Source of the DNA: Labia minor
Taxonomy: Eukaryota > Arthropoda > Insecta > Dermaptera > Spongiphoridae
DNA: 64,000 nt
Assembly: GCA_963082975.1 (NCBI GenBank)
Contig: OY720346.1
Span: forward strand, 25,910,720 to 25,974,719
Direction of reading: 5' to 3'
The notes beneath the pieces are model-generated. The model saw only the letters and a program-made list of their open reading frames with translations, searched no databases and was not told the DNA's origin. How positions within the stretch are numbered: position 1 is the first letter of the stretch; every line of letters starts with the position of its first letter. The translations under genes and the position numbers were made by a program. Shown here in pieces: positions 1,305-63,607 of this stretch.

Positions 1305-1931
1305 GTGGCCAGGTCCGAACCGACCGACGGTTTGAAGTAAATTAATTTCCAGCTACAGAAACAATTTCAAATAATTTTAATATATCTATTAATGTAATAA
1401 AAAACAGATATGGATACATAAATAATAAATATAAACATTTTTAATTATATTTTATTTATAATATATATGCTAGACCAGGCTGTGACGTCATGAATGGCTG
1501 GATGACGTCATATAATTTTAAATCAAGAAAAAAACTAATAAATATGATTTTTCTCGAGGATAAAACCAATACAAAGTGCATGATTCGTGGTGATATATAA
1601 AAAAATCTCCTCATGTGAAATTTGGTGTGAAAATAACCCTTCCCTTCCTATCGTCGATAGCTAATACTACCACTTCCGGTTTCCGGATTTGCACCAAAAG
1701 TTGATCAATTCATCCCACTGATGCATTAAGTAAATATACCAAATTTCACCAAAATCGGTTCAGCCGTTCAGGCTGTACACATCTATAAGGACGGACAGAT
1801 GGACATCATGCTAAAAATACTTTTTTCTGTTTAGAAAATGCATGATTCGTGGGGATATGTACCTAAAAATATCCACAGGTGAAATTTGGTGTGAAAACAA
1901 TACCTCCCTTACTATCGTCGGTCGGTAAAAA
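1305..1931 (-). repeat. TAC-A element, full-length copy 1
   Basis: Orientation is given from the TTTTTAC end, which lies here at the right (GGTCGGTAAAAA at about 1920-1931). The left end starts AAGTTGACC and holds two adjacent hairpins, GACCTGTGGCCAGGTC and AACCGACCGACGGTT. The 11-bp word ACCGACCGACG occurs inverted near both ends. Inside, in plus-strand order, are the paired TGACGTCA sites (1483-1490, 1503-1510), a first ~83-bp module (1578-1660), CACTTCCGGT (1671-1680), a short GGACGGACAGA core (about 1788-1805) and a second copy of the module (1839-1926). No coding capacity. The same order recurs at 15162, 20091, 52070, 53796 and 53901, which establishes a dispersed family. Subterminal inverted repeats plus a GTCY-type core resemble non-autonomous Helentron/DINE-1-like elements; that classification is inference. 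Confidence 0.85.
1483..1510. promoter_or_regulatory. Paired CRE-type palindromes inside TAC-A
   Basis: Two perfect TGACGTCA octamers at 1483-1490 and 1503-1510, 20 bp start to start, separated by a short spacer (TGAATGGCTGGA). TGACGTCA is the full consensus site of CREB/ATF bZIP factors. The pair recurs in other TAC-A copies, so it is a property of the repeat. Whether it binds anything is unknown. Confidence 0.45.
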
Positions 1932-3510
1932 TATACCATTTATTATAGTTTAATATGCTATTTAATATAATATAATATAAAGTGTGTCTTTTTAATCTAA
2001 AAACTAAACATCCGACTTCACCGATTTTGGTTTTTCTTACTTCTAAATTAATTTAGAAGCAATGATATTAGACTAATTTACCTGGTTTATTCTCTTAAAT
2101 AGCTAATATTCCAAACCCATTTAGAGTGTGTTTATATTAAAATAATCTTTTATTTTTATTTCAAAGATATTCCGATTAAATTAATGTTGTTATGAAAAAT
2201 TGAAATATGATAGATGAAGTGAAATGTGTTAGCACTTCAGTGGGAAAGGAAATGTTCTAATATATATAATAGATTAATGTATATTCTTAGATTATTTATC
2301 AACATTTCATTTTTAAACATAATTTTTCTCACGTGTTTCATTATTTTTTTTCTTTCATTGAATCTCGATCCTTCAATTTAATAATATATATTTCATTCCA
2401 TTTCAAGTAAATTATTTATTTATTTATTTAGATAGTCTTATGTTTCAATTTTTTTTCTCCCCAAATATGATTTATAAATTTAAAATTGAATTTTTCTAAT
2501 TTATAAAGATACAGTTGAATGTATTTTTTTTTAAAAAAAAAGATATCGCGTGTTCTCTCAATCGTGATTTAATAGCTCACATGTCGAATTTTTCTACAAG
2601 GTGGCAACTAATTTTCTTCGTACTTCCCTTCCCCCAATTTTCGCCCCGCATGTTCCGCTACATTAAAGAAGTTTGTCAGGTAATCATTTAGTATTTTTTT
2701 TTTAAAGTATTTTTATATATTAAAAAGGAAATGAATTTAGGTGTGGTGATCAAAATCGAATCAACATCATCTTATATTTAAGAGAAGAAATATTAATTAA
2801 TACCGAGAGAGAAAGAGAGAGAGATGATAAAAAGAAGATGCCTTCGTTTAAAAAAAAAGTCATTAAGATCTCTTTATACAAATTATAAATTAAAAGTTTT
2901 TAATTAGAAATAAATGAGTGGATGCTGCATATACAACTTCCAGCAGGTCTGATTTAATATACTAAAATAAAAACAACTTCTAATTAAAATGTCTAGTTAT
3001 TTTTTATATTTTATTTTCGATTTTAATTTTTACGATTCATTAAACGTAGAAATATTTTTAAAAAAATATTATGAACTTTTTTTTTAATAAACTGTGACGA
3101 TAATATAAAAATCTTCTAAATTTTGGATTGGAATTTTTTAAAATTATTCAATAAATATAATAAAATAAATAAAAATGTTTAATTATTATAATGATTATAA
3201 TTATGATTATTACTATATTATGTCCTAATATTATTAGTTAATTACATGTTGTTTTTTCATTTTTATAATTATAAAAATACATATTTATTTATAAAATATT
3301 TTGGAAAAAGTAATCATTAAATTAAAAAGAAAATTAGTAAGTAAAAATAAAAATACAAACAGTCGCATGTCACATTAACTTAACTACCCCAATAAACACT
3401 TGTGGGATTTGGTAATATAATAATTATTAGGAATTTATCTTTAATCAATATTAAAGCACAGTAAACACATTCCTTCAACTATTCTTATCCTAAGCTACAT
3501 CTATCCAATA
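1932..3510. other. A+T-rich noncoding stretch with one mixed-composition patch
   Basis: Mostly low-complexity sequence, with (GA)-rich sequence near 2803-2824. A patch at about 2570-2690 is less A+T-rich (includes CCCCCAATTTTCGCCCCGC). I could assign nothing to it. Confidence 0.5.
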
Positions 3511-3640
3511 CCTAACTCCTTCCTCATACATCCTACCCAAGGACACCGCCTATCAATTCGGTTATATTAATTAGGTACCCTATGATCAGTAGAACGGGTC
3601 CTATCAACTTTTACCTTGATTGACTTGATCGGAAACGCTA
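3511..3640 (-). repeat. SINE, 3' portion of an interrupted copy
   Basis: Matches the 3' part of the minus-strand SINE at 22571-22853: the sequence around TCCTACCCAAGGACACCGCC and then CCTATGATCAGTAGAACGGG and CTTGATCGGAAACGCTAC follow the same order with scattered substitutions. The remaining part of the copy lies at 4139-4233, beyond a ~500-bp insertion. No coding function. Confidence 0.7.
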
Positions 3641-4138
3641 CTTTTTATACACTTTTACTTAACTCACTCTGTCCGGTTGTACGCGGGTTGTCCGCGGCAT
3701 TTTATAATCGATATTTCAACAACTTCCCGTCATTCAATCAACTTGAAATTTTGCATACGCGCTTGCTCCTGCTAATAATACACGATTGAAAAATCCACTG
3801 AATTATTTATCTATTAGTGGTAATTAATTAACTAAACTTTCATATGCGGAATATGGAATAGTTCACTATTTCAATCATAGATGGCGATAGCAGTTCTAGA
3901 GGCGCTGAATACGACTAAAAAGTATAAAATAAATTTAAGTAAAAAGAAATATTTTTAAAAAATACACTTTACTTAAAATTGCACTAAAAAGTAAAAAATA
4001 AAATCACTTTAAAATGTATGCGCTCAAATTATAATAAGACCGTAAAACATTTAACACCGTAAAACATTTGCTTCCATTTGGTGTTATTATAAATTGAGCG
4101 CATACACTTTAAAGTGATTTTACTTAAATTTTTATGAA
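3641..4138. mobile_element. Insertion carrying a long hairpin, splitting a SINE
   Basis: The SINE sequence stops near 3640 and resumes at 4139, so this block was probably inserted into it. Its right half holds a near-perfect inverted repeat: AAAATCACTTTAAAATGTAT at about 4002 pairs with the complement of a segment ending near 4126, with loop sequence containing two copies of CCGTAAAACATTT. The left part has GC-richer pieces (TGTACGCGGGTTGTCCGCGG). No transposase is visible. It resembles a foldback or MITE-type element of unknown family; the exact ends are uncertain. Confidence 0.5.
4002..4126. repeat. Inverted repeat (hairpin arms ~36 bp)
   Basis: The arm at about 4002-4037 (through TGTATGCGCTCAAATTATAA) is the reverse complement of the arm at about 4087-4126 (TTATAAATTGAGCGCATACA...) apart from a few mismatches. 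The loop is about 50 bp. Confidence 0.75.
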
Positions 4139-4233
4139 ATAGCTTCCCAATTTTGACCCCTGAGGCTGTCCCATAGACCCAAACTATAGAAAGTACGTTG
4201 TCAGGCCCGGGTCCATGTGAGAATGTTGGTTAA
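4139..4233 (-). repeat. SINE, 5' (tRNA-like) portion of the interrupted copy
   Basis: Contains CTGAGGCTGTCCCATAGACC and AGGCCCGGGTCCATGTGAGA, matching in order the middle and tRNA-like head of the SINE at 22571-22853. The B-box region is decayed. Together with 3511-3640 it makes one SINE copy read on the minus strand. Confidence 0.6.
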
Positions 4234-5325: not shown

Positions 5326-7577
5326 ATTAAATTGAAATAAGATAAATTTTGAGATTGTAAATTCCTATTCATAATTTATTTTTCTTCAGATCTCGTATTT
5401 TTCTTACATAAGAATCAAATATAGATGTAGAAAAAAATTGCAATCTATTAATAAATAAAAATCGATAAAAAAAGAAAAATAAACGATTCGTGTATTAAAT
5501 TGAAAGTGGGATGTTGGGAACTGTTATCAATTTGTTGTTGTTGTTATTTTATTTTTTTTTTGTTTATGTATAATCTAATTCATTTAAAATGAAAATGAAA
5601 CGTGAAGTGGAATTATAAATTAAATGTAATGAATTGCAAATGGAGTTTAAGAAATTTGAATTTTAGAATGATTACCAATCGAATATTGCATGTAGGTGGA
5701 ATTTATAACTATCAATTTAGTTATTTTTTTGTGTATTAAATATAAATAAATAGATACGTTTATACGTATATATATATTCATTATATTACTTTCTCTGACT
5801 TTTTTGTAAGTGTATGTAGTATCTAATATTTAGGTATTTATTGATGATTTCCCCTTCTTTTAAAATTAAAGATTTAGTCGGAAAAATATAATTATAAAAA
5901 TAAAAATAATTTATAAAATAACTTTCTAATGATAAAATACTTGAGATAGATATGAAGGGAGATATATGAAAAGTTTTTTGGATATAAAATAATAAAATCA
6001 TATAAAAAATTAATTTATAACGTAAAATATTCAAAAGAAATAATTTAATTAATTTTCTATAACTCTGTTTGAAGTACATTATTTATTTAACCTGTTAATC
6101 GAATCTAAAATTTCAACCTGTTGTGAAAACTTTGTAATTATTATCATTAAAAATTTTAATAATACTTATTAAATATATCTCTCCCTCTATATATATATAT
6201 ATATATATTCATAAATAAATCTACATATACCTATATTTTATTTAAATTTGATTAAGAAAAATATGATTTGAATAGTGTTTGTTTTCTAAAGATAGTCATC
6301 TTAACATTATCAGAGATTCAACTATTTATTTAATAAAAAACAAAAAAACAAAAACAAGAACAAAAAATTGAATAACAAATTATTTAATTATTATTATAAT
6401 TTCATTGTGGTTGAAATGGTTGAATTAAGAAAAAAAAATAAAAAAACCACGGATAATTCTTGCATAACAAATAGGAGAAAGATTTCTTTAGAATGATAAA
6501 AGAAAATAATATTTATGGTTAATTCATAATTTTTTTTTTTTTTTTATTTCTAAAAAGAAATTAATAATATTTAACTAGATAGTACTGATATTTAATTATT
6601 AATTTTTATGATGATTAATGTTGAAATGTATTTAACAAGAAAAAAAAAGTAAAATAAAATCAAACAAATAAATTAATACTAAAGCATCTGAAGATATGGC
6701 CTTGCTGATAAAAATGCATAAAAATATAATAAATGTGATGATTTTAATCAACACGACAAATAAAAGAAAACAACAAAACACAACCACTATCAAACACAAA
6801 GCAAGTTGAATTAAATTGAAATTTATCTTGCTTAAATAAGACTTGTTTGGGGTGAGAAACCAACTCGTACCAGGCAGATAAGATCATTAATTTATACTTT
6901 TTTCATAACTCTATAACAGATAGATAGATATATGAATGATGAAGAGGCAACGGTAGATAATGAACTCAACAACAAAAGTGACTTAAATAAAGAGAAAAAT
7001 GTTTATTAATAATAACCAAAGTTTCATACCTAATTGAACAAATTTAAATGTAATTTATAAAAAAAAAATATCTCAATAGTGAATTTATCGTGATATTAAT
7101 TATTTCTATCTGATTAAATTATAAAAATTTGAATATAATTTAAAAAGAAGTAATTCAAAAGAAATAAAATCTTAATATTTCAAATAATTTTGTATCACAT
7201 TTATCAAAAGAGTTTGTTTAAAATCGTTAGTGCTGTTTAAAATCACTGATATAAATGATCCTTATGATTTGTCGATTTGCTCAAAAATTTTGATGTTACA
7301 TCCCAAGCAAATACATTAGTGTTGAAAACTTGGAACCAGAATTTTTCAATACTTTGTCTTATTTTACATATATATGAATAAAAGTAGATGAAAACTGTCA
7401 CATTTGTGAAGCAACACTTGCCGAGATGGATATTTGTGCTTCCATAGGCATAACTGCGAATTATTAAGACCAAGGATGAACAAATTTTATAAATTTATTA
7501 TCGATTTTTTACAAAACATTAATAAAAAACCAAAAGAAGTAAAAGCTACATTTTCAATGCATATTTTAGAAAGAAAA

Positions 7578-8176
7578 AATCTGGAGTGTCTCCACTCGAC
7601 TATCTCGCAAATTTGAATTGGATTAAATAACATATATTAATTTAAATTAAATTAAATTAATTAAATTATAAATTAAGATTAATAAATAATATTTATTAAA
7701 CCAGCGTTTGTTTGGCTCTTTGTTGATGGCACCACGTCACTTGTTGGTGCGTGAGATTTGCAGTGTTAAAAAATTAATTCTGGTACTTTCAGCGATTCAA
7801 TCAAGCTGAAATTCTATATATAGTAGTTTTATACAATTTTTAATCATATGAAAAATTATCAAACATATATCTTTATTTTTACGGTCACTTTAGAGGGAAA
7901 AAAATCAAAACGTTGTAGGTAATGACCCTATTCCGGTTGAGCTACATTTCTCAAAAGTTGATAGAAAACTATGAATTTTAAATAATGCCCATGTACCACA
8001 TTTCATCATTCTAGCTCAACGTCTTTGCGTAATCTTGTCTACATACACACATACACACTCCCAGACATTTTTCTTAGTGAAAATGATTCAGGAACCTTCA
8101 AAACGTATAAAAACATCAAAATCTCAACATCGAAAATTTTCGTGATCGCAATACTATTTCTAACGAGATAGTAAAA
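7578..8176 (-). repeat. TAC-B element, most complete copy
   Basis: The right end reads, on the minus strand, TTTTTTACTATCTCGTTAGA and then GTATTGCGATCACG. The left end carries GACTATCTCGCAA, so ACTATCTCG is inverted near both termini. Plus-strand order: left end; an A+T spacer; CAGCGTTTGTTTGGCTCTTT; GATTCAATCAAGCTGAAATT; CCGGTTGAGC; a TTTCATCATTCTAGCT motif; a CATACACACATACACAC core; then the hairpin end. Copies at 56905-57365 and 63236-63607 share the order. The hairpin-proximal part is recognisably related to TAC-C (shared ...CCTGAGTC...). No coding capacity. Confidence 0.75.
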
Positions 8177-10478
8177 AATTAATGACCAATATATTCGCAA
8201 AAAGGATCTCTTAAATAGAAGAGAACCAAAAAATACTTTTTTTTTAAATTAAATTTTCTTCTGAAGATATATTTTTATTCCATATTTAAAAGTACATACA
8301 TTTATTCAAATATATATATATATAATCTGATTGACATTTCAACATAATCAACTTGTTAAACGTATCCTGGATCAAAGATTGATAATGTCTTCTGATTGAT
8401 TTTGCATATTTATGTAGGTGGATATCTGATCAAGAAAAAAGTATAATAACAAATCTAAGACAAAAAAATAACAAAGGGCTAAACGGAAATTAAACTGAAA
8501 TAAAATTTATTAGACAAAGAATAGAAAAAAAAATAAATCTATTTATCTATCAAATAGTTAAACTCAAGGATTATAAATTATATTTATAATAAAAAAAAAA
8601 AAAAGAAAAAATTTTTACATAATTTGATTATGCAGGAATGTGATTCACTGTTCACTTAGATGGTATGCAATTTTCTTTCTAGATTAAAATAAAACTGATA
8701 TCTTTTTCAAGATAATTATATGCATATTGGATCGATATTTTTTATCGTTATTTCTTAATTAAATAGAAATTCAAGGAATTATTCATGTATTAAGAATAAT
8801 TGAGGAGAAAGAAAATGCTTGGAAAAGATATTGCTATGAGATTAAGAATAGCATATACTCTATATTTACTATCCGGAGGGTGGTATTAGAAAACAAATGA
8901 GGTCGTTGATAGTTGGAATCAATCAATAATTTACATCCTCAAGGCAGGATATCATCTTCTCACCAATCGGTGATGTCTAATATCGATTTTATATTGTGGA
9001 ATGAAATTAATAGCTATTATTTTTTTTATATGTAAAAATTAAAATGTTAAATTAGATGAATATTATGTTAAATTTTTAAATAAGATCAACATACTTGTTC
9101 CTATAATAACTCCTAATCAATTTCAAGAAAATGTATAAATAATACTAGAAATGCACCTATTCCCGGACCTTCAGGATTACATTAATTTGAATAGGTCTAA
9201 CATTAATATTGAAATTATTTCAGTAACGCATTTTTAAACTAAATATAACAAAAGTACAAATATTAATATACCTTATTTTTTACTTATATTTTTTTATTTT
9301 ATAAGAAATATGAATTAAATTCGAAAGCAGTAGACCGAACTTGACCAGGATTCACAAAAATATGATAATATATTATTAGTTTCAAATATTTTATAATATT
9401 GAAGAAATATGTAAACTAGTTACAATGAAATAGAATTTGTTTGAAAATTAAAAAAATACAAAAATGACTCTCCTTTGAAAGTTTATTTTCAACCCTTTTA
9501 TTAATTTTTATATATTTTGGTTTCATCCCTTGTTTAATTTAATTTTAATTTTGTTTACTCTTTGTATTATAATATAATTAGCCAAAATTGTAATATCTAG
9601 ATATTCCAAATTTTTTATAATTATAATTTTTTTTCTAATTAATCACATAATTGAAATATATAAATATTTCTATAATCATTTCAACGCTCATACCTTTGAA
9701 TGCACAGCATGATTTTTCTCTATTTTAATTTATAATTAAACGGGGCACGATCTCTTTGAGTTTAACGTCATTTGGTTTTGGGATACTTCATTGGTTATAT
9801 AGTTAAAATTGCAAAATTTTGAAAAAATAATCCTATCATAAAATAAGTGAGTGAAACATCTAATTTTTGGAATTTAGATCGGCTATGAAAATCAATTTTT
9901 TTTTATAGATTATGAGTTTATTAGAAAGATTGGATATTTTCATTTAGGATAAAAAACACTTAAGTACCGCTCAGCCCAATTTGGAATTTTGTTACTCATT
10001 ATGGATGTACATAGACTACATATGTGTAGATTAAGGAAAACTGCTGCATTACAACTTTCTCAAATAAACGATTTATTTCTTATAGCGTGTTATTATTAAC
10101 CCCTATAAATGAAAATGTGCAATCTTTCTAATAAACTCCTAATTTGAAAAAAATATAAAATATTTATTTTCTTTATTTGAATATCCGATCAAAGAGAATG
10201 AATCATCATTGATAGAACTTTTAAAATCGTCTTAAAAGCTATTTTCAGTGGAAACAATAGTTAAATGAATAAGAATGACAAAAATGTGTACTGATGTGAT
10301 AAAAGCCCATGGTAGATAAATATATTGATGAAAATAAACTATAACTGTGTCTAAGCAGAAACAAAAATTTCCCATAAAAAGTTAATTTTCTTTACATAAT
10401 TTTTTATCTTTTCCTTTGTACTTTTTGAAAACTACATTTTCTTTTAATATAGAAGAAAAAAAATATGTTTAGTAAATA
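8177..10478. other. A+T-rich noncoding stretch
   Basis: Low-complexity DNA with TA and poly-A tracts (for example about 8313-8324 and 8589-8603). A short mixed patch at about 8930-8995 contains the palindrome-like ACCAATCGGTGATG. No gene or element assigned. Confidence 0.5.
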
Positions 10479-14625: not shown

Positions 14626-15161
14626 AAAAAATGGAAAAGAAAAAGTATGAGATAAGAAAGAAGCGATCTGCAATTAACTGAGAAGAGATTTTCATCTTTT
14701 ATGGGCGTAACAAATAAATTTGATATAATATGCAATAAAAACAAAAACATACAAACAATCAAAATAGTGAATTTATAGGGGGTTAAGATATTATATTTAT
14801 TTATTCTGTCTTGGAAAGATTATAATAAATCTATTATGTAATCAAATAAAATAAGAAATTCTAATTTTATAAAATTTACTTTATCAATTCAATTTTTAAT
14901 ATATTATAACAAGAAAAAAAATTTGGGATATGACAAGGAATATTTTTACTTATTAACTTAAATCTAATTCATTTAATCAGACCAAAAATAAAATATTAAG
15001 TTTTATCTAACTTTATTAATTAAATGACAACTCGAAAATTCGTGTTCCAAACCAAGTCTATAATCCTTGATCGGTAAAAAAAGAGTCTAAATTTTATTTT
15101 ATTTTTTTAAAAGAGATCGTCGAAGACGGGTTCCTTTAGAAAATCTTCACTAGTTGAAAAT
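14626..15161. other. A+T-rich noncoding stretch
   Basis: Nothing recognised apart from poly-A tracts. Confidence 0.55.
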
Positions 15162-15791
15162 AAGTTGACCTGTGGCCAGGTCCGAACCGACCGACGGTTT
15201 GAAATAAATTAATTTTCAGCTAAAGAAACAATTTCAAATAATTTTAATATATCTATTAATGTAATAAAAAACAGATATGGATACATAAATAATAAATATA
15301 AACATTTTTAATTTTATTTTATTTATAATATATATGCAAGACCAGGCTGTGACGTCATGAATGGCTGGATGACGTCATATAATTTTAAATCAAGAAAAAA
15401 CTAATAAATATGATTTTTCTCGAGGATAAAACCAATACAAAGTGCATGATTCGTGGTGATATATAAAAAAATCTCCTTTGGTGTGAAAATAACCCTTTCC
15501 TTCGTATCGTCGATCGCTAATACTACCACTTCCGATTTCCGGATATACACCAAAAGTTGATCAATTCATCCCACTGATGCATTAAGTAAATATACCAAAT
15601 TTCATCAAAATCGGTTGAGCCGTTCAGGCTGTACACATCTATACGGACGGACAGACGGACGGACAGACATCATGCTAAAAATACTTTTTTCTGTTTAGAA
15701 AATGCATGATTCGTGGAGATATGTAAAAATCTCCACATGTGAAATTTGGTGTGAAAACAATACCTCCCTTACTATCGTCGGTCGGTAAAAA
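15162..15791 (-). repeat. TAC-A element, full-length copy 2
   Basis: Begins AAGTTGACCTGTGGCCAGG and ends GGTCGGTAAAAA. TGACGTCA sites lie at 15350-15357 and 15370-15377. The first module lacks about 11 bp present in copy 1 (the CATGTGAAATT stretch near 15477). The ETS-like word is mutated (CACTTCCGAT). The core is slightly longer than in copy 1 (about 15648-15668, GGACGGACAGAC units). Confidence 0.85.
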
Positions 15792-20090: not shown

Positions 20091-20726
20091 TTTTTACCGA
20101 CCGACGATAGTAAGGGAGGTATTGTTTTCACACCAAATTTCACATGTGGAGATTTTTACATATCTCCACGAATCATGCATTTTCTAAACAGAAAAAAGTA
20201 TTTTTAGCATGATGTCTGTCCGTCCGTCTGTCCGTCCGTATAGATGTGTACAGCCTGAACGGCTCAACCGATGATGAATTTGATGAAATTTGGTATATTT
20301 ACTTAATGCATCAGTGGGATGAATTGATCAACTTTTGGTGTATATCCGGAAACAGGAAGTGGTAGTATTAGCGATCGACGATAGGAAGGGAAGGGTTATT
20401 TTCACACCAAATTTCACATGAGGAGATTTTTTTATATATCATCACAAATCATACAACTTTGTATTGGTTTTATCCCCGGGAAAATCATATTTATTAGTTT
20501 TTTCTTGATTTAAAATTATATGACGTCATCCAGCCATTCATGACGTCACAGCCTGGTCTTACATAGATATTATAAATAAAATAAAATTAAAAATATTTAT
20601 GTTCTATTCATATCTGTTTTTTATTACATTAATAGATATATTAAAATTATTTGAAATTGTTTCTGTAGCTGGAAATTAATTTTCTTCAAACCGTCGGTCG
20701 GTTCGGACCTGGCCACAGGTCAACTT
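20091..20726 (+). repeat. TAC-A element, full-length copy 3
   Basis: Starts TTTTTACCGACCGACGATAG and ends GGTCAACTT. TGACGTCA sites are at 20521-20528 and 20541-20548. The GTCC/GTCT core (about 20214-20239) is moderately long. The ETS-like word is AACAGGAAGTGG, and the conserved ACCGATTTTGATGAAA motif is altered (ACCGATGATGAATTTGATGA). Opposite orientation to copies 1 and 2. Confidence 0.85.
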
Positions 20727-21404
20727 ATAATAATAGAAATAGAATTACCAGTTTGGGTAGATCATTTTAATATTCCTCTCAAATAAATAAATAAAGAATA
20801 TACCTAACTTTGATTTATATATATAATACAATTTGTATTTTTTATATCATTTAATTCGAACTAAATTGAGTAAATAAATTGGATCTGAATGGCGGTGGAA
20901 TGTTTTTGTTGGTGCCGAAAGGCCCACATACCATCTAGGCATGGATCTTGACTGATATTGACGGGGACCAGTTTCTTTAACATTCCCCCATACCCCCTAT
21001 TTTTTATTTTCTTCTTTAATAAACCATAGCATGGATGTCATTAATTAATTCGCATCCTACACTTGTGATAAAAGACTTGGATTCAATTATTTAATGAAAA
21101 TTAATGCATTTGCATTTTTAACACAAAGAGGGTCGTTTGCAAAATTAAATCGAGAATTAAAATTGGCAGTATCTCTTTTAATATATGGAAATGAATTCAA
21201 AACTTTCAGGTTGATAATATATAAATCCAGTTTAGGCACAAATTTGTTGAATGTGATGTTTTGTTAGACATTAAACAATAAACAGGGTTAAGTATTCATT
21301 AATCTTGGGTAAAATATTTAAATTTTTATCAACTTGGAAGTATTTTAATTGTTATATATATTTTTATTAAGTTATTTATAAAATAAACTATTTTCTATTT
21401 ATTA
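20727..21404. other. Noncoding stretch with one mixed-composition island
   Basis: A+T-rich except about 20880-21010 (ATGGCGGTGGAATG, GGTGCCGAAAGGCCCACA, GACGGGGACCAG, CCCCCATACCCCC), which belongs to no repeat seen here and has no long frame. The rest shows nothing. Confidence 0.4.
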
Positions 21405-32720: not shown

Positions 32721-32985
32721 AAACTACCACTTCGGGTTTCTGGATATATTACCAAAAGTTGAAGAATTCATGCTACTGATGCATGTAAATATATCAAATT
32801 ATATTAAAATCCAATGAGCTGTTCGTTATACACGTCTATACGTACACACAATGAACGAACAAACATCTTGCTAAAAATACTTTTTTCTTTTAACAAAATG
32901 CATGATTGGTGGAGATATGTCAAAATCATGTGAAATTTGGTGAGAACATAATACCTTCCCCTTTCTATCATCGGTCGGTAAAAAA
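32721..32985 (-). repeat. TAC-A element, old 5'-truncated copy
   Basis: From CTACCACTTCGGGTTTCTGG to CATCGGTCGGTAAAAA it follows the TAC-A order with many substitutions. The GTCY core has decayed (ATACGTACACACAATGAACG). The part carrying the TGACGTCA pair is absent. The divergence marks it as one of the oldest copies here. Confidence 0.7.
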
Positions 32986-33703: not shown

Positions 33704-33867
33704 TAAATAACTATTATTGTATTTATGTTTTAGCGAGAGTTAAAACCATATTAACAAATTTCTTATTTATTTTTTTTATATTGCATATATAAACAAAAAA
33801 AAAATTAAGTTCAAATTTTTAAAGTGAATTTTACAATATGCTTTCTCAAAATTCAGAATTTATATTA
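33704..33867. other. A+T-rich spacer
   Basis: Nothing recognised between the TAC-C copy and the TAC-A terminal fragment. Confidence 0.5.
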
Positions 33868-33902
33868 AAACAATACCTCCCTTACTATCGTCGGTCGGTA
33901 AA
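33868..33902 (-). repeat. TAC-A terminal fragment
   Basis: AAACAATACCTCCCTTACTA followed by TCGTCGGTCGGTAAAAA: only the last ~35 bp of TAC-A, well preserved. Confidence 0.8.
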
Positions 33903-34159
33903 AATTGAAAAATATTTATTTTTGAAAACAATTGATAGATTGATTAATTTACATAAAATCTTTTAAAAATTTATTTTAAAATTTGGTATGATTATATTAT
34001 AAATTATTTATTGTTTACGAATATCTGTTCATTTTTTTTATTGTTTATTTATTTTTTAGATTTTTAGATACTAGTTATATATAAAAAACATAATGATAGA
34101 TATTTTGTTTGTAGAAGATGAGAGGTGTATAATAATTAATAGTTTTTACTGTTTAATAT
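33903..34159. other. A+T-rich spacer
   Basis: Nothing recognised. Confidence 0.5.
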
Positions 34160-44541: not shown

Positions 44542-44582
44542 GTCTAGATGCGAAGAGCGACGAAGGAGCTCTGAGCAGCTAG

Positions 44583-46076: not shown

Positions 46077-46107
46077 ATCTTGATCTTTTTTTAAAAATTG
46101 CTTTTTT
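45451..46107. other. A+T-rich noncoding stretch
   Basis: TA tract at about 46046-46069. The frames here (45944-46177, 46029-46316) run into the simple repeats and are not genes. Confidence 0.5.
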
Positions 46108-46237
46108 ACTTTCCCGCATACTTCGTATAAGGGAAGTATTGGAATCGTCAAAAATTTCGACTTCGAGATTTCGATAGATCTTGACGTTTTAGACCTCCCT
46201 GAGTCGGAAAATACCATTTTTCGAATTATGTCTGTGT

Positions 46238-46262
46238 GTATGTATGTATGTATGTATGTATG

Positions 46263-46291
<29 letters not shown>
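46238..46291. repeat. (TATG)n microsatellite core of TAC-C
   Basis: About thirteen TATG units. The reading frames through it (YIHT or CMYV repeats) are artefacts. Confidence 0.95.
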
Positions 46292-46293
<2 letters not shown>

Positions 46294-46588
46294 TGTCTGT
46301 AAGCAAATTTACTCAAAAACTAATCAAGCTAGGACTTCGAAATTTGGTACACCGATATTATTCACAGTTTGTAGATTTCTATCAAAATTTCGTCAAAATC
46401 GGTTAACCGGAAGTGGTACTTTACCTACACTGGTTGCGTTTACCTTTCAAGTAAAGTACCAGTTTGCTTCGAGATATTTGCTTCATATTTTGTATATAGA
46501 TTTAAAAATATGAAAAAAATTCAGATACCAAATTTCATCATGATCTGACTACCGGAAGTGACATTTTACCTATAAAAGTAGCGTTTCC

Positions 46589-46968
46589 TTTTTACCGACC
46601 GACGATAGTAAGGGAGGTATTGTTTTCACACCAAATTTCACCTGTGGTATATTTACTTAATGCATCAGTATGATGAATGGATCAACTTTTGGTGCAAATC
46701 CGGAAACCGGAAGTGCTAGTATTGCCGATCGAAGAGAGGAAGTGAAGGGTTATTTTAATATCAAATTTCACGTGAGGACATATCTCCACGTGTTATGCAT
46801 TTTGTATTGGTTTTATCCTCGAGAAAAATCATCTTCATTAGTTTTTTCTTAATTTAAAATTATATGACGTCATCCAGCACTTCATGACGTCACAGCCAGC
46901 CCTTATATATTATAAATAAAATAAAATTAAAAATATTTATATTATATCCATATCTGTTTTTTTTACAT
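46589..46968 (+). repeat. TAC-A element, internally deleted, nested in TAC-C
   Basis: Starts TTTTTACCGACCGACGATAG; the first module is cut short (CACCTGTGG joins directly to TATATTTACTTAATGCATCA), so the microsatellite core and the ACCGATTTTGATG motif are lost. AAACCGGAAGTG (near 46704) and the TGACGTCA pair (46865-46872, 46885-46892) remain. The distal GGTCAACTT end is missing. Confidence 0.8.
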
Positions 46969-47175
46969 TTAAAATATCAGTTAACCGGAAGTAGCACTTT
47001 ATTCTATATATACATATATATATATAAATGTTACCAAATATCAAATTTTACACCAATAAACTAATACGAACTGGCACTTTATCAATACCAAGTTTACACA
47101 TTCTAAATATTCATTCACAACTTTTTATACCTATTTATATGCGGGAAAGTCTAGGGGCGGACACTCCCGCTTATT

Positions 47176-47662: not shown

Positions 47663-47664
47663 AC

Positions 47665-50007: not shown

Positions 50008-50029
50008 GCCCGTGTAAACTAGGCTTGAA

Positions 50030-52069: not shown

Positions 52070-52698
52070 TTTTTACCGACCGACGATAGTAAGGGAGGTA
52101 TTGTTTTCACACCAAATTTCACATGTGGAGATTTTTACATATCTCCACGAATCATGCATTTTCTTAACAGAAAAAAGTATTTTTAGTATGATGTCTGTCC
52201 GTCCGTCCGTATAGATGTGTTCAGCTTGAACGGCTCAACGGATTTTGATGAAATCTGGTATATTTACTTAAGGCATCAGTAGGATGAATTGATCAACTTT
52301 TGGTGCAAATCCGGAAACCGGAAGTGGTAGTATTAGCGATCGACGATAGGAAGGGAAGGGTTATTTTCACACCAAATTCCACATGAGGAGATTTTTTTAT
52401 ATATCGCCACGAATCATGCACTTTGTATTGGTTTTATCCTCGGGAAAATCATATTTATTAGTTTTTTCTTGATTTAAAATTATATGACGTCATCCAGCCA
52501 TTCATGACGTCACAGTCTGGTCTTGCATATATATTATAAATAAAATAAAATTAAAAATGTTTATATTTATTATTTATGTATCCATATCTGTTTTTATTAC
52601 ATTAATAGATATATTAAAATTATTTGAAATTGTTTCTGTAGCTGGAAATTTATTTACTTCAAACCGTCGGCGGTTCGGACCTGGCCACAGGTCAACTT
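52070..52698 (+). repeat. TAC-A element, full-length copy 4
   Basis: TTTTTACCGACCGACGATAG through GGTCAACTT. Short GTCC core (about 52194-52209). ACGGATTTTGATGAAATCTG, AAACCGGAAGTGG, two modules, TGACGTCA at 52485-52492 and 52505-52512. Uninterrupted TTAACAGAAAAAAGTATTTT at about 52164-52183 gives the undisturbed sequence of the site into which another copy inserted at 53901. Confidence 0.88.
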
Positions 52699-53795
52699 AT
52701 TTGAAATATTTAGAACAAAAAGTCAAACGTTTTCTGGACTAAGCTTTTGAACATTTCCGAATTTTTTCCAAAATTTTTTTCAATATGGTTCTAAAAAAAA
52801 GGTAAAATGTCCTAATTGGTGTTTATAACATTAATGCAAATATACAAAGAAATTATTCAAAAAAAAAAAATTGATTATATAAATTTTAGATATTATTATA
52901 TAACTTGATAAAATTATTATATTCATCTATATCTAAGGGTATTTATTACTATTTTTTTACCTTTCTCTTCGTTTTATAAATTACCTGTCTTCGAGATTTC
53001 TCTCTTTGTCTTTTTACCCTAATATCTAGTTTTCCGTATAAATCATATAACTTAGAAACTAGTCAATTGATTCTTCATCTAATTTAGCAATTTATTCTTA
53101 AACATTTTAATTTTTTTTTTTCATTCTTGATATTACACAACCATATATGTCCACCTGTAGAATGTAATTTTATTGATTCTTATCTTAAGATTCTTAGATA
53201 AATATTCTCAAAACAACAAAATAACTAGATGAGACAATTTGATTAACTTGATCTTGTTATTATAATTACTTAATATTGATTTTCAATCATATTCAACTCT
53301 ATTTTATAATTTGTCTCTTAATATAAAAGTTAATATTATATTCATAGAAGAAACATTTACATATAGAAATAGCTCGAGTTGTTTTATTTTAGAATAAAAT
53401 AAAAGTGATCTTTCTTGAAACATCAATCGTAGCTTGATGGTTGGATAAATCTCCAGTTATGGTCAAAGTGATCATGAATATAAAAATCACAGATCGAACG
53501 ATTCTCAAGACTGAAAAGGGATTATCATTCTCCTACAATGGAAAACAATTAAATAGAATTTCTGATCATAACCAATTTTATTCCATATAATATAAGTATA
53601 ATAATTTATGTTCACTGAATTAAATTCGAAATGCATCAATTGAATGCTAATACTAAATTTATTAGTTGAATATAATTATAAATAGCTCAAATATTAATAT
53701 ATTAATATTGTTCTCATTAAGCATTATTATAGGGTTATGAGAAATCTTATATTCGAATTAAACATATAATACACTAATACATAAATTATAATTAG
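52699..53795. other. A+T-rich noncoding stretch
   Basis: Nothing recognised. Confidence 0.5.
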
Positions 53796-53900
53796 TTTTT
53801 ACCGACCGACGATAGTAAGGGAGGTATTGTTTTCACACCAAATTTCACATGTGGAGATTTTTACATATCTCCACGAATCATGCATTTTCTTAACAGAAAT

Positions 53901-54586
53901 AAGTTGACCTGTGGCCAGGTCCGAACCGACCGACGGTTTGAAATAAATTAATTTCCAGCTACAGAAACAATTTCAAATAATTTTCATATATCTATTAATG
54001 TAATAAAAAACAGATATGGATACATAAATAATAAATATAAACATTTTTAATTTTATTTTATTTATAATATATATGCAAGACCAGGCTGTGACGTCATGCA
54101 TGGCTGGATGACGTCATATAATTTTAAATCAAGAAAAAACTAATAAATATGATTTTTCTCGAGGATAAAACCAATACAAAGTGCATGATTCGTGGTGATA
54201 TATAAAAAAATCTCCTTTGGTGTGAAAATAACCCTTTCCTTCCTATCGTCGATCGCTAATACTACCACTTCCGGTTTCCGGAATTGCACCAAAAGATGAT
54301 CAATTCATCCCACTGATGCATTAAGTAAATATACCAAATTTCATCAAAATCGGTTGAGCCGTTCAGGCTGTACACATCTATACGGACGGACAGACGGACG
54401 GACAGACGGACGGACGGACAGACGGACGGACGGACAGACGGACGGACGGACAGACGGACAGACATCATGCTAAAAATACTTTTTTCTGTTTAGAAAATGC
54501 ATGATTCGTGGAGATATGTAAAAATCTCCACATGTGAAATTTGGTGTGAAAACAATACCTCCCTTACTATCGTCGGTCGGTAAAAA
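53901..54586 (-). repeat. TAC-A element, full-length copy 6, nested in copy 5
   Basis: AAGTTGACCTGTGGCCAGG to GGTCGGTAAAAA in the opposite orientation to its host. TGACGTCA at 54089-54096 and 54109-54116. CACTTCCGGT near 54266-54275. The core has expanded to about 80 bp of GGAC/AGAC units (54382-54463), the longest here; the Ser-Val-Arg-Pro repeat frame through it is an artefact. The first module has the same internal gap as copy 2, so these two are close relatives. Confidence 0.88.
54382..54463. repeat. (GGAC/AGAC)n minisatellite-like core
   Basis: Irregular GGACGGACAGAC arrays, the expanded version of the core that is only ~18 bp in the copy at 1305-1931. Confidence 0.95.
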
Positions 54587-55124
54587 GTATTTTTAGCATG
54601 ATGTCTGTCCGTCCGTCCGTCCGTATAGATGTGTACAGCCTGAACGGCTCAACGGATTTTGATGAAATTTGGTATATTTACTTAATGCATCAGTATGATG
54701 AATTGATCAACTTTTGGTGCAAATCCGGAAACCGGAAGTGGTAGTATTTAGCTATCGACGATAGGAAGGGAAGGGTTATTTTCACACCAAATTTCACATG
54801 AGGAGATTTTTTTACATATCACCACGAATGTATTAGTTTTATCCTCGGGAAAAATCATCTTCATTATGTTATTCTTAATTTAAAATTATAAGACGTCACC
54901 CAGCCCTTCATGACGTCACAGCCTCCTTATTATGATCACGGGCTACGCGGGTTACTTCAGCTATATATTATAAATAAAATAAAATTAAAAATATTTTTGT
55001 TCTATCTATATCTGTTTTTTATTACATTAATAGATATATTAAAATTATTTGAAATTGTTTCTGTAGCTGGAAATTAATTTACTTCAAACCGTCGGTCGGT
55101 TCGCACCTGGCCACAGGTCAACTT

Positions 55125-56760
55125 ATTATTATTTATAACAGCTTAGAATTCCATATTAGCCAGTTTACACATTAACTTATTTTGATTTTATCACATTAAT
55201 TTTTGAATTTTTGGAAAATTGGTGAGGTTTAAATTTTCATTCTCAAGTACAATAATTCATCATTTTACCACTTAGCTACTCTCTTGTTTATATTATAATT
55301 TATTTTAAAATTATTTTTTAGAATTAAAAAGGATTAAGTAAAAAAGTAAATATAATTCTTATTTTTTATTTATTTATTCATATTTCTTAATTGATGCTGA
55401 TTCATTTCGAAATGAAATAGGAAATAGAAAATGGCTGAAGAAAAATTCAATACATAGATATAAATCGTAAGAAATATATTCCCAAAATGTTTATATTTAG
55501 AAATTAATCAATTGAAATAATTTTCATCTCAATAAATTTAAAATTTGAATTATATACGGTTCACTAATTATAAATTAAAATTGAAATAAAGAATTTTTTA
55601 AATTTATTTATAAATGGAATAAATAAATATTTTATAAACGATTTCCTTTAAATGCTGACTTAAATTGATTATTTTATTTATTCTATTGCTTTCTGTATTT
55701 GAGAAAATCCTTATATGGGTTCGAGTAATATTTAATTGAAATTTACTATTCGGAAGAGGGGGACAACTTGGAGGTCTTTTTTTCAATACAAAACAACCAT
55801 GATCGCCAATAGCCTAATAAATTAGAATTTGCAATTGTCTATTTTATTCTTTGGTTATACGAATTCAATTTCCATTTTGTTGTCCTTTCTATTGAATTGA
55901 AATCACATTCTTATTATTCGTTTTAATAAAATTTATTTTTAATATCTTACAATTTTATTATCGATTGGAGAATGGAGAGGGAGCAATCCATATAATAAAT
56001 GTGCATATAATAATATGCATATAATAAATAGATAATATCTGTCCTCCCTGTTGGACAATGAAAGTATAATAAATACATTCTTATACATTCATTAGAATAC
56101 TTTCAAATAATTGAATAATAAAAAAATATTCTATACTTAACTTTTAATTAAGAGAGGTAGGAATAATTACATTTTATTTTCACATATATTACTATTAACC
56201 ACCCACATCGATCAATATTTAATCATTTATAATCAAATTAAAATGAAATAAAATAGATAATAATTATTTTAATTATAAAAAAAATATAAATATATAATTA
56301 ATTAAATATAAACATATAATAACAAAAACAATAAATGAGTAAAAAACAATTAATTAATTAAGAATAATGGAAATGTTATTTTTTCAAGTAAAATGGTATT
56401 TATATTTTAAATAATTATGAATACCTATTCATAAATCATAATTTCGGGGATATGGAGTATTGAGGCCTTAAATGAAAAATTTTTCAAAAATTGTAATAAA
56501 AATTTTAATTGAAAATAATAGTATTATTATTCATAAATTAAATAATATATCGTAATGACTCTATCTATTTTGGTTCAATGTTAATAATTTTTTTAATATA
56601 TTATTTTTCTGAAAATGAAACAATTTAACAAATTAAGTAGGCTAGATTTAATGAAAAATTAAAGAAAAATATCTGAATTGGATTAATTAACATATATTAT
56701 ATTGAAATTAAATTTAATTAATTATATAAATTATTAATTAAATTTAATCTTATATATAAT
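55125..56760. other. A+T-rich noncoding stretch
   Basis: Nothing recognised. Confidence 0.5.
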
Positions 56761-56870
56761 AAGTTGACCTGTGGCCAGGCGCAGAACCGACCGACGGTTT
56801 GAAATAAATTAATTTCCAGCTACAGAAACAATTTCAATTAATTTTAATATATCTATTAATGTAATAAAAA
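56761..56870 (-). repeat. TAC-A terminal fragment
   Basis: AAGTTGACCTGTGGCCAGG through CTATTAATGTAATAAAAA: only the GTTGACC-side 110 bp, cut off where the Helitron end begins. Confidence 0.85.
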
Positions 56871-56904
56871 CGTCTAGATGCGAAAAGCGCCTCTGAGCAG
56901 CTAG
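56871..56904 (+). mobile_element. Helitron 3' end fragment
   Basis: CGTCTAGATGCGAAAAGCGC then CTCTGAGCAGCTAG matches the terminus at 44541-44582, with CTAG at 56901-56904 followed by T. The hairpin is degraded. No matching 5' end lies nearby. Confidence 0.65.
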
Positions 56905-57365
56905 TAAATAATATTTATTAAACCAGCGCGTATTTGGCTCTTTGTTGATGGCACCACGTCACGTGCTGGCGCGTGATTGCCGGTCAACGCGTTAAAAAAT
57001 TAATTCTGGTAATTTCAGCGATTCAATCAAGCTGAAATTTTATTTTTTATATATAGCAGTTTTGTACAATTTTTAATCATGTGAACTATCAAACTAATAT
57101 CTTTCTTTTTACGGTCACGTTAGGGGAAAAAAATCAAAATGTGGTAGGTTGAGATACATTTCTCAAAAATGGATAGAAAACTACAAATTTTGAATAATGC
57201 CCATGTAACAGTTTTTTCCGTAATCTCGTATACCCCCCCCCCCCCCCACACACACATACATACACACACACAGAGACTTTTTTCTCAACCTTAGTGAAAA
57301 TGACTCAGGGACCTTCAAAACGTATATAAACATCAAAATCTCGAAATCGCGAAAATTATTTTTTT
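56905..57365 (-). repeat. TAC-B element, copy 2, left end missing
   Basis: Begins TAAATAATATTTATTAAACC exactly after the Helitron CTAG and follows the 7680-8176 copy: GTATTTGGCTCTTTGTTGAT, GATTCAATCAAGCTGAAATT, TACATTTCTCAAAAATGGAT, a poly-C/CA core (57235-57271), GGGACCTTCAAAACGTATA. It decays before the ACTATCTC hairpin. The segment is preserved further than in copy 1 at CACGTGCTGGCGCGTGATTG. Confidence 0.75.
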
Positions 57366-59201
57366 TTATGGTTAAATGAACATGAAAGATGTAAGGTCAA
57401 AAAATAAAATATAAAGTCAATCCAACCATGGTCCAATCGAATGGGTCAAAAATTTGATTAAAAAATATTGAAATTAAATTATGTATATTGATAGATTTCA
57501 AGAATATCTATTTCAACTTTAAACTAGAGAGTTTCGCTAACATATTGGATTTATCAACTATAATGAAACTTACCTCAACGAAGATCCTGAAAGTAAGAAA
57601 TTCATAATGAAAAAGTGTATAAATTATCGTGAGCAAATGATGAACATATCTAAAGATTGTATAAGATTTATGATTTCATGTACCACTTGAACAAATTCAA
57701 ACATATGAAAACATCAGTGCAAATTATTTAAGATACAAAGATTAAAAAATTGATGGTAAATTATTATTATTATATAGCCAAATGATTTTCTATTTTCATA
57801 AAATTTTCAAAAGATATTTATATAAGTAAATCAATTATTTAGTTTATTTTTTATTAGACTCTTACTTATACACTTATTTTATGGCAAGTATTATTTTAAT
57901 AATTATTTCTTTTATTAATATTAATATTATTGCTAATATTTTGAATTCGATGCACCTCAGTAACGAAGGCCATTTCTGTCTTAAGGAAATCATCCATCAT
58001 TTCTTTACGTGATTAATTCCCCTCTTTACATACAACCCCTTCAGGGAGAATTTGGTCTTCTTCGTCAGAGTACAGCCTGGTAAACACATTTAATAGTTTA
58101 TCATTTTTTTATAAGAAAAATTATGATTTAAAAATTGACTTTTTTAATATAATTCATTAGAAAAGTCTATAATTTAAAATAAAAATTATTTTATTAAGTA
58201 ATATTATTTATTTATTATTTATTATAATAATAAGTAGATTATTACTTTTATAATCATGTCTCTAAATACAACGTATAATATAAATATAGGTATATATTGT
58301 ATTCCGAGGATGATACAAACTTAAATTATAAAAGAAGAGGGGGCAAGTAGAAGTTATGAGATATATATTTATTTATATTTTCGTTGAAAATTAATTACAT
58401 ATGAATCATAATATTTCCCTCTCTCTTTCTCTCCTGGATTCACTTTGTTACCTTGAACTGCCCTGTGTACCCCCTCCCCCCACTCGACCATATACTGTCT
58501 CACATCCAACCCGACTGCATACGCATTCCATCTATTACTATATTTACATTCGAAAGCTATTTGCTCTCCGCAGCTGCAATTTGACCCAAATCCCTCTCAC
58601 TCTCCCTCCAACACCTCCCACCCCTTTATATCTGTCTCTCTCTCTATTTTATTTTAATTCTAATTTGATTTGATAAATGTGTTGCATCATCAACATCTCT
58701 TATCTCGTCTCTCTAGTATTAGTACAAGTTTTAAAAATATTATTTAATCTTGCATTTTTAATCATCGATTAAAATTTGCATTGAAAACCGTCTGTTGCAA
58801 TTTTTCATGATTCTCTTTTATAATATTATTAACCTTTCCATTTGTTTAAACATCTTAATTCTTAAAAAAAAAAAAAAGATTTGTCAAGTTGATAAAGAAA
58901 CCAAAATCCTCGATTAATAATTTTGTTTGTTCAAATTCAAATTCATCCACTTATGATGTTTTCAATTTTAAAATGATTATAAATTCTAATTCGATTCATC
59001 AGGTAACCAGTTTGCCTCTTTATTTGATAGTCTGAAACATTATATTACACATTTTGTAAATATTATAAACATGTTGAGATTTATCCTCTTTTTTCAAGTT
59101 TAATATCTCAGCCTACACACTAATAAGCATTTTTCTTTCTGATAAAATAAATTTATTTAGGAAAATTTTTATAAAATTTTTAATAATTTTATTAAATAAA
59201 T
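57366..59201. other. A+T-rich noncoding stretch with pyrimidine-rich patches
   Basis: A mixed patch at about 58015-58085 (CCCCTTCAGGGAGAATTTGG, CGTCAGAGTACAGCCTGG) and a CT-rich stretch at about 58410-58650 are unassigned. The 58401-58673 frame is driven by CTCTCT repeats. Confidence 0.45.
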
Positions 59202-59669
59202 AAGTTGACCTGTGGCCAGGTCCGAACCGACCAACGGTTTGAAGTAAATTAATTTCCAGCTACAGAAACAATTTCAAATAATTTTAATATATCTATTAAT
59301 GTAATAAAAAACAGATAGGCATACATAAATAATAAATATAAACATTTTTAATTTTATTTTATTTATAATATATAAGAGCTGTCTGTGACGTCATGAAGGG
59401 CTGGATGACGTCATATAATTTTTAATTAAGAAAAAACTAATAAAGATTATTTTTCTCGAGGATAAAACCAATACAAAGTGCATGATTCGTGGTGATATGT
59501 AAAAAATCTCCTCATGTGAAATTTGGTGTGAAAATAACCCTTCCCTTCCTATCGTCGATCGCTAATACTACGACTTCCGGTTTCCGGATTTGCACCAAAA
59601 GTTGATCAATTCATCCCACTGATGCATTAAGTAAATATACCAAATTTCATCAAAATCCGTTGAGCCGTT
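59202..59669 (-). repeat. TAC-A element, truncated before the core
   Basis: AAGTTGACCTGTGGCCAGG to AAATCCGTTGAGCCGTT. TGACGTCA at 59386-59393 and 59406-59413. It stops just before the GGAC core, so the second module and the TTTTTAC end are lost. Confidence 0.85.
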
Positions 59670-62800: not shown

Positions 62801-63235
62801 ATATATCGATGACAAAAAAAAAAAAAAAAAACTAAGAAAACAAAGTAAAAGAGGGAAATGAAAAAATGACCTTTTAAGGGAAAATTAAATGATTTAATTT
62901 TCGCAATAACAAAAAAAAAAAAAAAATCGGGCTAATTAAAAGAGAAATGATCGTCAATTATTTCCAATTGCACAAAATAAATCACAAGAGTTGTTGTTCT
63001 CGACGTACCTGCTGTTGTGTAGTTGTTTTATTTTAAAATAAAACTTTCAGAATAATTTACACCTTCCGGTTTTAAATAGAAATAAAAAAAAAATGAATAA
63101 AAATTACATGGAACGCGAGAAAAAAAAAATTATTTTGATTTTGATGATTACAGAGGAAAATGACATGATATTTCAACAGTTAATAAATTTATAGAGAAAA
63201 TAAATTAGTTTTCTATAAACTCAACCCAATAACTC
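59889..63235. other. A+T-rich noncoding stretch with one island
   Basis: Low complexity with poly-A/T and TA tracts (62492-62513, 62812-62831, 62911-62926). The only mixed-composition part is 61300-61420, listed separately. No gene recognised. Confidence 0.5.
61300..61420. other. High-complexity island
   Basis: CACCCAGGAGCTTTCCAACA, GATGCCCGTTAAATACGCCA, CAGGGGGCCGCCTCGCTCCG and ATCCCGACATTAACGCTGG in an otherwise A+T-rich 3.3-kb stretch. A minus-strand frame crosses it (61158-61397, MDSFSSVNVGMKRSEAAPCG). The N-terminal 35 residues look protein-like and the rest Lys/Ile-rich. It could be a conserved noncoding element or a short exon. Confidence 0.35.
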
Positions 63236-63607
63236 AATTTTTTTTAATCTGTAATTTTTACTATCTCCCCAGAGATAGTATTGCGATAATGAAAGTTTTC
63301 GATGTCGAGATTTTGATGTTTTTATACGTTTTGGATATCCCTGAGTCATTTTCACATAGGTTGAGAAAAATGTCCCTTTCTGTGTGTGTGTGTGTGTATG
63401 TATGTAGACAAGATTACGCAAAAATGGTTTAGCTAGAATCATGAAATTTGGTATACGGGCATTATTCAAATTTAGTAGTTTTAGTTTTAGTTTTATTTTT
63501 GAGAAATGTAGCTCAACCGGAAGATTAATTAAATTAAATTTAATTATAATATATGTTATTTAATCCAATTCAAATTGCGAGATAGTCGATTGAAGACACA
63601 CCAGCTT
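63236..63607 (+). repeat. TAC-B element, copy 3, internally deleted
   Basis: TTTTTTTTAATCTGTAATTT leads to TTTTTACTATCTCCCCAGAG and a hairpin with GAGATAGTATTGCGATAATG. Then TTTTCGATGTCGAGATTTTG, TATCCCTGAGTCATTTTCAC, a (TG)n core (63380-63396), TTAGCTAGAATCATGAAATT, TGGTATACGGGCATTATTC and CTCAACCGGAAG. It joins directly to the terminal block ATATGTTATTTAATCCAATT...GCGAGATAGTCGATTG. The middle ~300 bp of copy 1 are absent. Confidence 0.78.

Follow-up and report, generated by a model that had tools for sequence, protein, structure and literature searches.

The window analysed here (the whole stretch of 64,000 nucleotides, positions 25,910,720 to 25,974,719 of contig C4 in an assembly of 604,477,936 bp and 71 contigs) carries three repeat families, TAC-A, TAC-B and TAC-C (A, B and C below), which raise the question of whether they are variants of one kind of mobile element and how such elements would have moved. 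Very probably the three are related to one another and belong to the HINEs, non-autonomous rolling-circle elements of the DINE-1-like type.

G+C content across the window ranged from 19.5 to 29.9% in 4-kb steps. No tRNA genes were detected in the window with ARAGORN, and no Rfam matches at gathering thresholds. A domain scan of ten of the 27 window frames of at least 85 aa returned two mariner-type (PF17906) remnants and one reverse-transcriptase (PF00078) remnant. A mariner remnant at 36578-37030 was the only window frame to reach 150 aa from stop to stop. The window appears to be repeat-rich animal DNA. A coding-capacity test found A, B and C to be without proteins, as expected of HINE/DINE-1-like elements.

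Copies, shared parts and kinship

Self-comparison and direct reading identified 11 A copies or pieces, counting the two parts of A5out once, together with three for B and two for C. Complete A copies on the minus strand are A1 (1291..1931, read from 1931 to 1291) and A2 (15158..15791); those on the plus strand are A3 (20091..20728) and A4 (52070..52702). In A3 the 5' word lies at 20096-20106, the (GTCY)n array at 20214-20239, the core starts at 20285 and the 3' word lies at 20692-20702. A5in (53898..54586, minus strand, (GTCY)n at 54382-54463) is a further complete copy, inserted into A5out and splitting it into a left part (53796..53904, plus strand) and a right part (54587..55136, plus strand). 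The remaining A pieces are A6 (59198..59669, minus strand, without its 5' end), A7 (56758..56870, minus strand, a solo 3' end adjoining B3), A8 (46589..46969, plus strand, 3'-truncated, within C2), A9 (32723..32984, minus strand, a diverged 5' half) and A10 (33867..33904, minus strand, a solo 5' end).

B1 (7574..8177, minus strand) is a complete B element with inverted words at 8164-8172 and 7599-7607. B2 (63255..63611, plus strand) retains both ends around an internal deletion, and B3 (56902..57357, minus strand) has neither end. C1 (33310..33595, plus strand) is a 5' part with an internal deletion and without a 3' end. C2 begins at 46102..46588 (plus strand), with (TATG)n at 46227-46301 and the core at 46339-46412. 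The plus-strand segment 46970..47172, beyond A8, probably continues C2, because it carries the inverted word (47138-47150) and a third ACCGGAAG module; a stem and the CTTA end follow. Complete elements are approximately 0.6-0.7 kb long, with C2 measured without its A insert, and are protein-less.

The preliminary description had the three families sharing the same parts in the same order, and this collinear blueprint was confirmed by word counts far above shuffled expectation. From the 5' end the order is a start of five T followed by AC, a subterminal inverted repeat specific to each family and enclosing a hairpin (putative in A), then GTATTG, ATGTC and a microsatellite. Beyond the microsatellite come GAAATTTGGTA, usually 67 nt ahead of ACCGGAA, the 3' subterminal repeat, a stem (not in B2) and CTTA|TT. 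The pattern TTTTTAC-N(8-30)-GTATTG matched 13 times in the window against 0.31 expected in shuffled sequence; twelve matches are A, B or C 5' ends and the thirteenth, at 59469-59505, falls inside an A copy and corresponds to its second internal module. TTTTTAC alone (77 against 47.6 expected) is frequent in this AT-rich window and was therefore given no weight on its own.

ACCGGAAG occurred 12 times in the window (0.51 expected), and GAAATTTGGTAYAC 14 times with up to two mismatches (2.35 expected). GAAATNTGGTA with ACCGGAA 50-75 nt further on was found eight times in the window (0.00 expected). The total length of this block is 74 bp, with the 67-nt spacing, in seven of the eight (the A copies, B1 and C2), and 80 bp in B2. 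ACCGGAAG is mutated in A2 and A3, and CCCTGAGTC reads TCCTGAATC in B1. Besides the common CTTA|TT terminus and the 3' stem, two features had been overlooked earlier: the 5' module is present a second time within A, and C contains ACCGGAAG modules in repeated form.

The family-specific words were also enriched. The A word ACCGACCGACG was counted 16 times with up to one mismatch (0.02 expected), the B word CGAGATAGT three times (0.17 expected) and the C word TATGCGGGAAAGT three times exactly, or five times with up to two mismatches (0.89 expected); one TATGCGGGAAAGT 3' end is that at 47138-47150, past the A copy inside C2. The claim that an inverted word stands near both ends held for A, B1 and C2. 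The B2 5' word, ACTATCTCC, matches at 8 of 9 positions. C1 does not show the pair, and as it has no 3' end the C inverted word is read from C2 alone.

Pairwise alignment showed B and C to be homologous in the 5' part, the core and the 3' end. Their proposed alignability from hairpin to core was therefore upheld and extends to homology along the whole length, so that membership of B and C in one superfamily is well supported by sequence comparison. A and C could be aligned in the 5' part and the core, that is, on both sides of the microsatellite. The A core aligned with that of B1 and weakly with that of B2; the 5' parts of A and B were not directly alignable. No sequence alignment was obtained between the A 3' end and the B or C 3' ends, which agree in anatomy alone. 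The single superfamily proposed for all three thus stands for B and C and in part for A (5' part and core, not 3' end), whose inclusion is moderately supported. The alternative, that three unrelated families acquired a common HINE anatomy through independent origin, draws on the A 3' end and the A and B 5' parts, which have no direct alignment. It is already disfavoured for B and C by homology spanning their entire length, and the A-C homology that flanks the microsatellite on both sides, with the same 67-nt spacing, also argues against it; we regard it as very improbable.

Ends and insertion sites

Subterminal inverted repeats were present near both ends, of 11 bp in A, 9 bp in B1 (8 bp in B2) and 13 bp in C2, and the 3' repeat sits 22-25 nt from the terminus. 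The partial inverted repeat that accompanies the 5' repeat forms a perfect 9-bp hairpin in B2 (z -13.4) and an imperfect hairpin in C2 (z -2.4), C1 (z -1.6) and B1 (z -1.0). In A, TACC pairs with GGTA together with a few inner bases, and 68 of 200 shuffles folded equally (z -0.4). At the 3' end, A has a stem-loop with a 6-bp stem, GACCTG-GCCA-CAGGTC (z -3.2). The predicted C2 stem takes in part of the 3' subterminal word (z -2.9), the B1 stem is weaker (z -1.9; 11 of 200 shuffles folded as well) and no 3' stem was detected in B2 (z -0.4). In the random sample described below, the four listed B 3' ends all keep GAGTGGAGACACTC; the search word used there contained ACACTCC or GACAC.

All 13 window copies having a 5' end carry 5-7 T ahead of AC. 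For A, a larger set comprised the window plus loci L130-L176, with L129 omitted as it repeats the window. The A 5' word matched 72 times in this set, 29 of them at the nested site described below. The other 43 matches had 5-8 T in 34 cases and 0-3 T in nine, some of the nine being the 3' inverted word and not a 5' end. There were 60 A 3' ends, of which 33 passed the nest filter (one of these, in L143, is the nested site with a changed letter). The 33 ends read CTTA+TT in 29 cases, CTTA+TA in one and CTT without A in three. B/C-type 3' ends read CTTA+TT in five of seven cases.

At the A5in site, sister copies have six A uninterrupted and the split copy has three plus five A flanking the insert. 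These counts leave room for no more than 2 bp of target duplication at A5in, or for none if two T are counted as part of the element. The B-in-B nest of L173, whose inner copy is altered at its 3' end and preceded by four T, is also without a longer duplication. No repeated word of at least four letters, T-only words excluded, abuts both ends in any of the nine complete window copies. Insertion was thus into T-runs, the 3' end being followed by TT, and without detectable duplication beyond approximately 2 bp; a 2-bp TT duplication is compatible with these sites.

Canonical Helitrons have TC...CTRR ends and insert at A-T, as given in the parts of Thomas et al. (2014; PMC4067079) that were compared. 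A, B and C have a 5' TTTTTAC, a 3' CTTA|TT and a T-T site, and were not classed as canonical Helitrons. Nor were they classed as cut-and-paste MITEs with terminal repeats and a fixed duplication, as the 3' repeat is internal and no abutting duplication was present in nine of nine copies. A looser version of the latter reading is that an unknown DNA transposase moves them by cut-and-paste as MITE-like elements, whose inverted repeats are subterminal and whose TT duplication is 2 bp long. Such a duplication fits T-run sites, mariner remnants are present in the window, and DINE-1 itself was formerly read in this way (PMC2374699, parts compared). We nevertheless consider this reading improbable, as the 3' inverted repeat lies 22-25 nt inside the terminus and, in A, B1 and C2, has a stem beyond it, no non-T word of four letters or more abuts both ends in the nine complete window copies, and the anatomy is that of HINEs. 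The parts of HINE/DINE-1 elements are present in their published order, and the anatomy and target behaviour expected of the DINE-1-like design proposed earlier were mostly found when tested.

Nests, abundance and candidate enzymes

The A5 junction (551 bases) was used as a query for further A-in-A nests, and 40 of 1307 candidates were scored. The selected loci are therefore nests with that junction, and their site and orientation, being set by the query, are no evidence of preference. Among the best 40 places, 39 span 542 or more of the 551 bases, or close to that; identity to the query was 100% for the window and 89-96% for the others. Of these 40, 28 loci were read (L129-L136 and L137-L156, L129 being the window's own nest). 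A left piece, an inverted inner copy and a right piece were arranged at the same host site in 27 of the 28, with the right piece or inner copy incomplete in several. L130 is without the left piece, that of L136 is shortened and L132 reads as a three-deep nest in which orientations alternate. No such nests were found among the A copies of the 200-kb random sample.

A strict parser accepted 21 of the 28 loci, 18 of them with a long outer copy; L129, L130, L132, L136, L138, L147 and L150 fell outside. Inner-copy distances were uncorrelated with outer-copy distances across the 18 nests (Mantel r -0.08, p 0.74). In a tree, inner and outer copies were intermixed with 11 single copies. Junctions differed in host alleles and A-runs (28 junctions at 27 loci: three A in 26, four A in one and six A in one). 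The non-matching distances, mixed tree and varied junctions favour several independent insertions over the spread of one composite, with the reservation that gene conversion between nest arms could have scrambled the distance signal. Repeat hits would require no special targeting, since tens of thousands of A copies offer the same T-run. The GTCY stretch measured 48-72 bp in the inner A of all 18 parsed nests, 16-32 bp in the outer copy of 17 of 18 (one was unmeasurable) and 16-44 bp in eight single A copies from the random sample. No biological cause is claimed for the longer inner arrays, because in the query itself the inner array was long and the outer one short.

Abundance was estimated from 20 of 80 random 10-kb places drawn on seven contigs (200 kb). 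After overlapping weaker matches were dropped, BLAST returned 14 A, 18 B and one C match, covering 3.00%, 3.48% and 0.11% of the sampled bases, respectively. Scaled to 604 Mb, this puts A and B each at tens of thousands of pieces, an estimate with wide error in which fragments are counted. At approximately 6% of the sampled sequence, A and B together are relevant to annotation of the genome.

A profile search for candidate enzymes with PF14214 (Helitron_like_N) gave 104 genome rows from 126 candidates, all of which were scored; in some cases several rows belong to one gene. Uninterrupted frames of at least 1,300 aa hold 17 of the 104 rows. Two Rep domains read whole end in EFQKRGLPHMH and EWQKRGLPHAH, each then followed by ILL. 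According to the parts compared of PMC4067079, Helitrons have L in this motif and Helentrons S in its place; the two domains thus bear the canonical Helitron signature (RGLPH), not that of Helentrons. A third Rep group (e.g. C6:19230938), read in part without the diagnostic motif, looks unlike the other two and contains YWR. It may be of the Helentron kind: YWR resembles a second Helentron mark described in the same source. An endonuclease family scan scored 150 of 1216 candidates, and comparison of the two lists by eye gave no endonuclease row closer than 10 kb to a same-strand Rep row; one endonuclease/Rep pair within 10 kb was on opposite strands (C1:43708669 and C1:43711966). A tblastn search with three Rep domains against the window, the nests and the random sample (362,553 bp) returned nothing convincing (best E 0.70).

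A Helentron-like enzyme is the putative mover of A, B and C. Mobilization of these HINE-like elements by the canonical Helitrons of this genome is also conceivable, as intact Helitron-like Rep frames are common (the 17 of 104 rows above) and both fully read domains carry RGLPH. We think it unlikely, since the element ends are TTTTTAC...CTTA at T-T and not TC...CTRR at A-T, and the YWR group may supply the Helentron kind. In the favoured Helentron-like mechanism, a Rep/helicase supplied in trans would nick at T-T, peel off and copy one strand starting at the T-rich 5' end, and stop at the 3' stem and CTTA end, the copy being joined into a T-run. The microsatellite, at a homologous position between two conserved blocks, would have been turned over (GTCY, TG, TATG) with the flanking blocks kept, and present variants would derive from internal module duplications and internal deletions. 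Such a mechanism is already known. With three families in one genome that differ at their ends and have a collinear core in common, one can ask which HINE parts are constrained, by what route the inner microsatellite is exchanged and whether a single enzyme can act on different subterminal repeats.

Comparison with known elements

A, B and C were compared with parts of the published descriptions of similar elements and with sequence collections. Exact patterns for the A core and the A and C 5' ends had no match in viral_contigs, and the A 5' pattern had none in genome_contigs. Looser core patterns matched 8 and at least 120 contigs in viral_contigs. Among 129 core-like words at 128 viral loci, none had CCGGAA at the right distance and none a microsatellite upstream, and they were therefore taken as chance. 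None of five core strings occurred in the literature searched, and among six shorter strings ACTATCTCG alone appeared in the literature matches listed, in unrelated papers; no claim is made that the three families have not been published.

The description of Drosophila DINE-1 (INE-1, mini-me; Yang and Barbash 2008; PMC2374699), in the parts compared, resembles A, B and C in its subterminal inverted repeats with a partial repeat beside the 5' one (putative in A), a block A split by a GTCY microsatellite, a conserved core, a variable central region, a 3' stem-loop a few nt past the 3' repeat, TT insertion and the lack of an ORF. It differs in that the A, B and C subterminal words are not those shown there, the repeats are 8-13 bp against 13 in DINE-1, and the B and C arrays are TG and TATG. 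Provisional sequences of two fly elements were aligned with the cores against 1000 shuffles each: the B1, B2 and C2 cores did better than most shuffles (27, 6 and 2 for the first element; 7, 0 and 0 for the second), and the A4 core did not (598 and 137). This is a lead towards common descent of the B and C cores with DINE-1 and no test of it. The 2008 paper, as far as compared, reports that BLAST searches of mosquito, silkworm and other eukaryotes gave no DINE-1 relatives, and regards the element as confined to Diptera; in the parts compared, Thomas et al. (2014) list DINE-1-like elements in other orders. More speculatively, A, B, C and dipteran DINE-1 might descend from one ancient HINE, the microsatellite-flanking core (AGCTAGA...GAAATTTGGTAYAC...ACCGGAAG) forming a working part of the transposition signal that was retained while ends and microsatellite motif changed, and the internal T-run being a recurrent landing site at which Russian-doll A-in-A palindromes were built many times independently; we hold this only tentatively.

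HINEs and Helentrons of the mite Metaseiulus (PMC4067079, parts compared) share a subterminal inverted repeat near the 5' end, a 3' palindrome and a T-rich target that has two T or more on either side and is left unmodified. They are described without the core that A, B and C have and without the 5' partial repeat (putative in A), the distance from the 3' repeat to the end is 38-60 bp against 22-25, and, unlike for A, B and C, an autonomous partner is known. The Cg_HINE elements of the Pacific oyster (PMC7492417, parts compared) offer a parallel for the whole set, with 11 HINEs in a single genome that have common modules and different microsatellites, and likewise combine subterminal inverted repeats, an inverted repeat and a palindrome. 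Their central satellite-like arrays set them apart from A and C, which have short internal module duplications only. The DINE1-like elements Helitron2_Cv and Helitron3_Cv of Calliphora (PMC3630058, parts compared) have the partial 5' repeat, the GTCY protosatellite and the 3' stem-loop; Helitron2_Cv has 11-bp subterminal repeats, as does A, and Helitron3_Cv is without the 3' one. Helitrons cover 5.01% of the Calliphora region studied there, and no families with other microsatellites are described in those parts of the paper. As HINE/DINE-1 elements match part by part, apart from the weaker points noted above, with precedents in oyster and Calliphora, A, B and C are, as far as the literature compared extends, new families of a kind already published.

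Nested TAC-A copies

Palindromic nests, in which an inverted inner copy of the non-coding, DINE-1-like family TAC-A lies within an outer, host copy at a single T-run site, were found at 27 of the 28 genome loci read (L129-L156, from the best 40 of 1307 candidates). These loci were selected using the junction of the window's own nest as the query, and the same layout is present at window positions 53796-55136. One locus was nested three deep. Co-inheritance of inner and outer copies was not apparent among the parsed loci. The GTCY microsatellite measured 48-72 bp in inner copies versus 16-32 bp in outer copies (18 parsed loci; one outer copy unmeasured); the longer inner stretches are possibly caused by query selection.

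TAC-A junctions and combinations with TAC-B

Two TAC-A copies abut head to tail at L130:2369-2373, with CTTATT followed by ACCGACC at the junction, a pattern expected both of tandems made by rolling-circle copying and of insertions one after another. At window 56758-57357, an end-less TAC-B copy (B3) is followed by a solo TAC-A 3' end (A7) and then by AT-rich DNA similar to what lies close to the 3' end of the complete TAC-B copy B1. This arrangement may be read as a chimera or as TAC-A inserted in TAC-B.

Other repeats and coding remnants

Self-comparison of the window revealed a dispersed repeat on both strands (21441-22010 and 43979-45249; 68-80% alike), a further one at 3527-3647, 22572-22816 and 35390-35637 (80-86% alike; G+C 0.40-0.51), a 371-bp unit duplicated in tandem (49275-50008; ~76% alike), and a 156-bp inverted repeat (~90% alike) flanking 285 bp at 30606-31192. 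The frame across this inverted repeat, mariner-like in appearance, gave no match in a Pfam scan. Pfam matches identified three coding remnants, two of mariner-type transposases and one of a reverse transcriptase (10608-11006, 36578-37027 and 22173-22514). Elsewhere, a profile search of the genome located recurring Helitron-like Rep (replication protein domain) fragments at G000:C5:46739897-46792979 (contig C5 of the same assembly), spaced by 9,817, 9,817, 5,689 and 5,687 bp. The regular spacing suggests Helitron units arranged in tandem.
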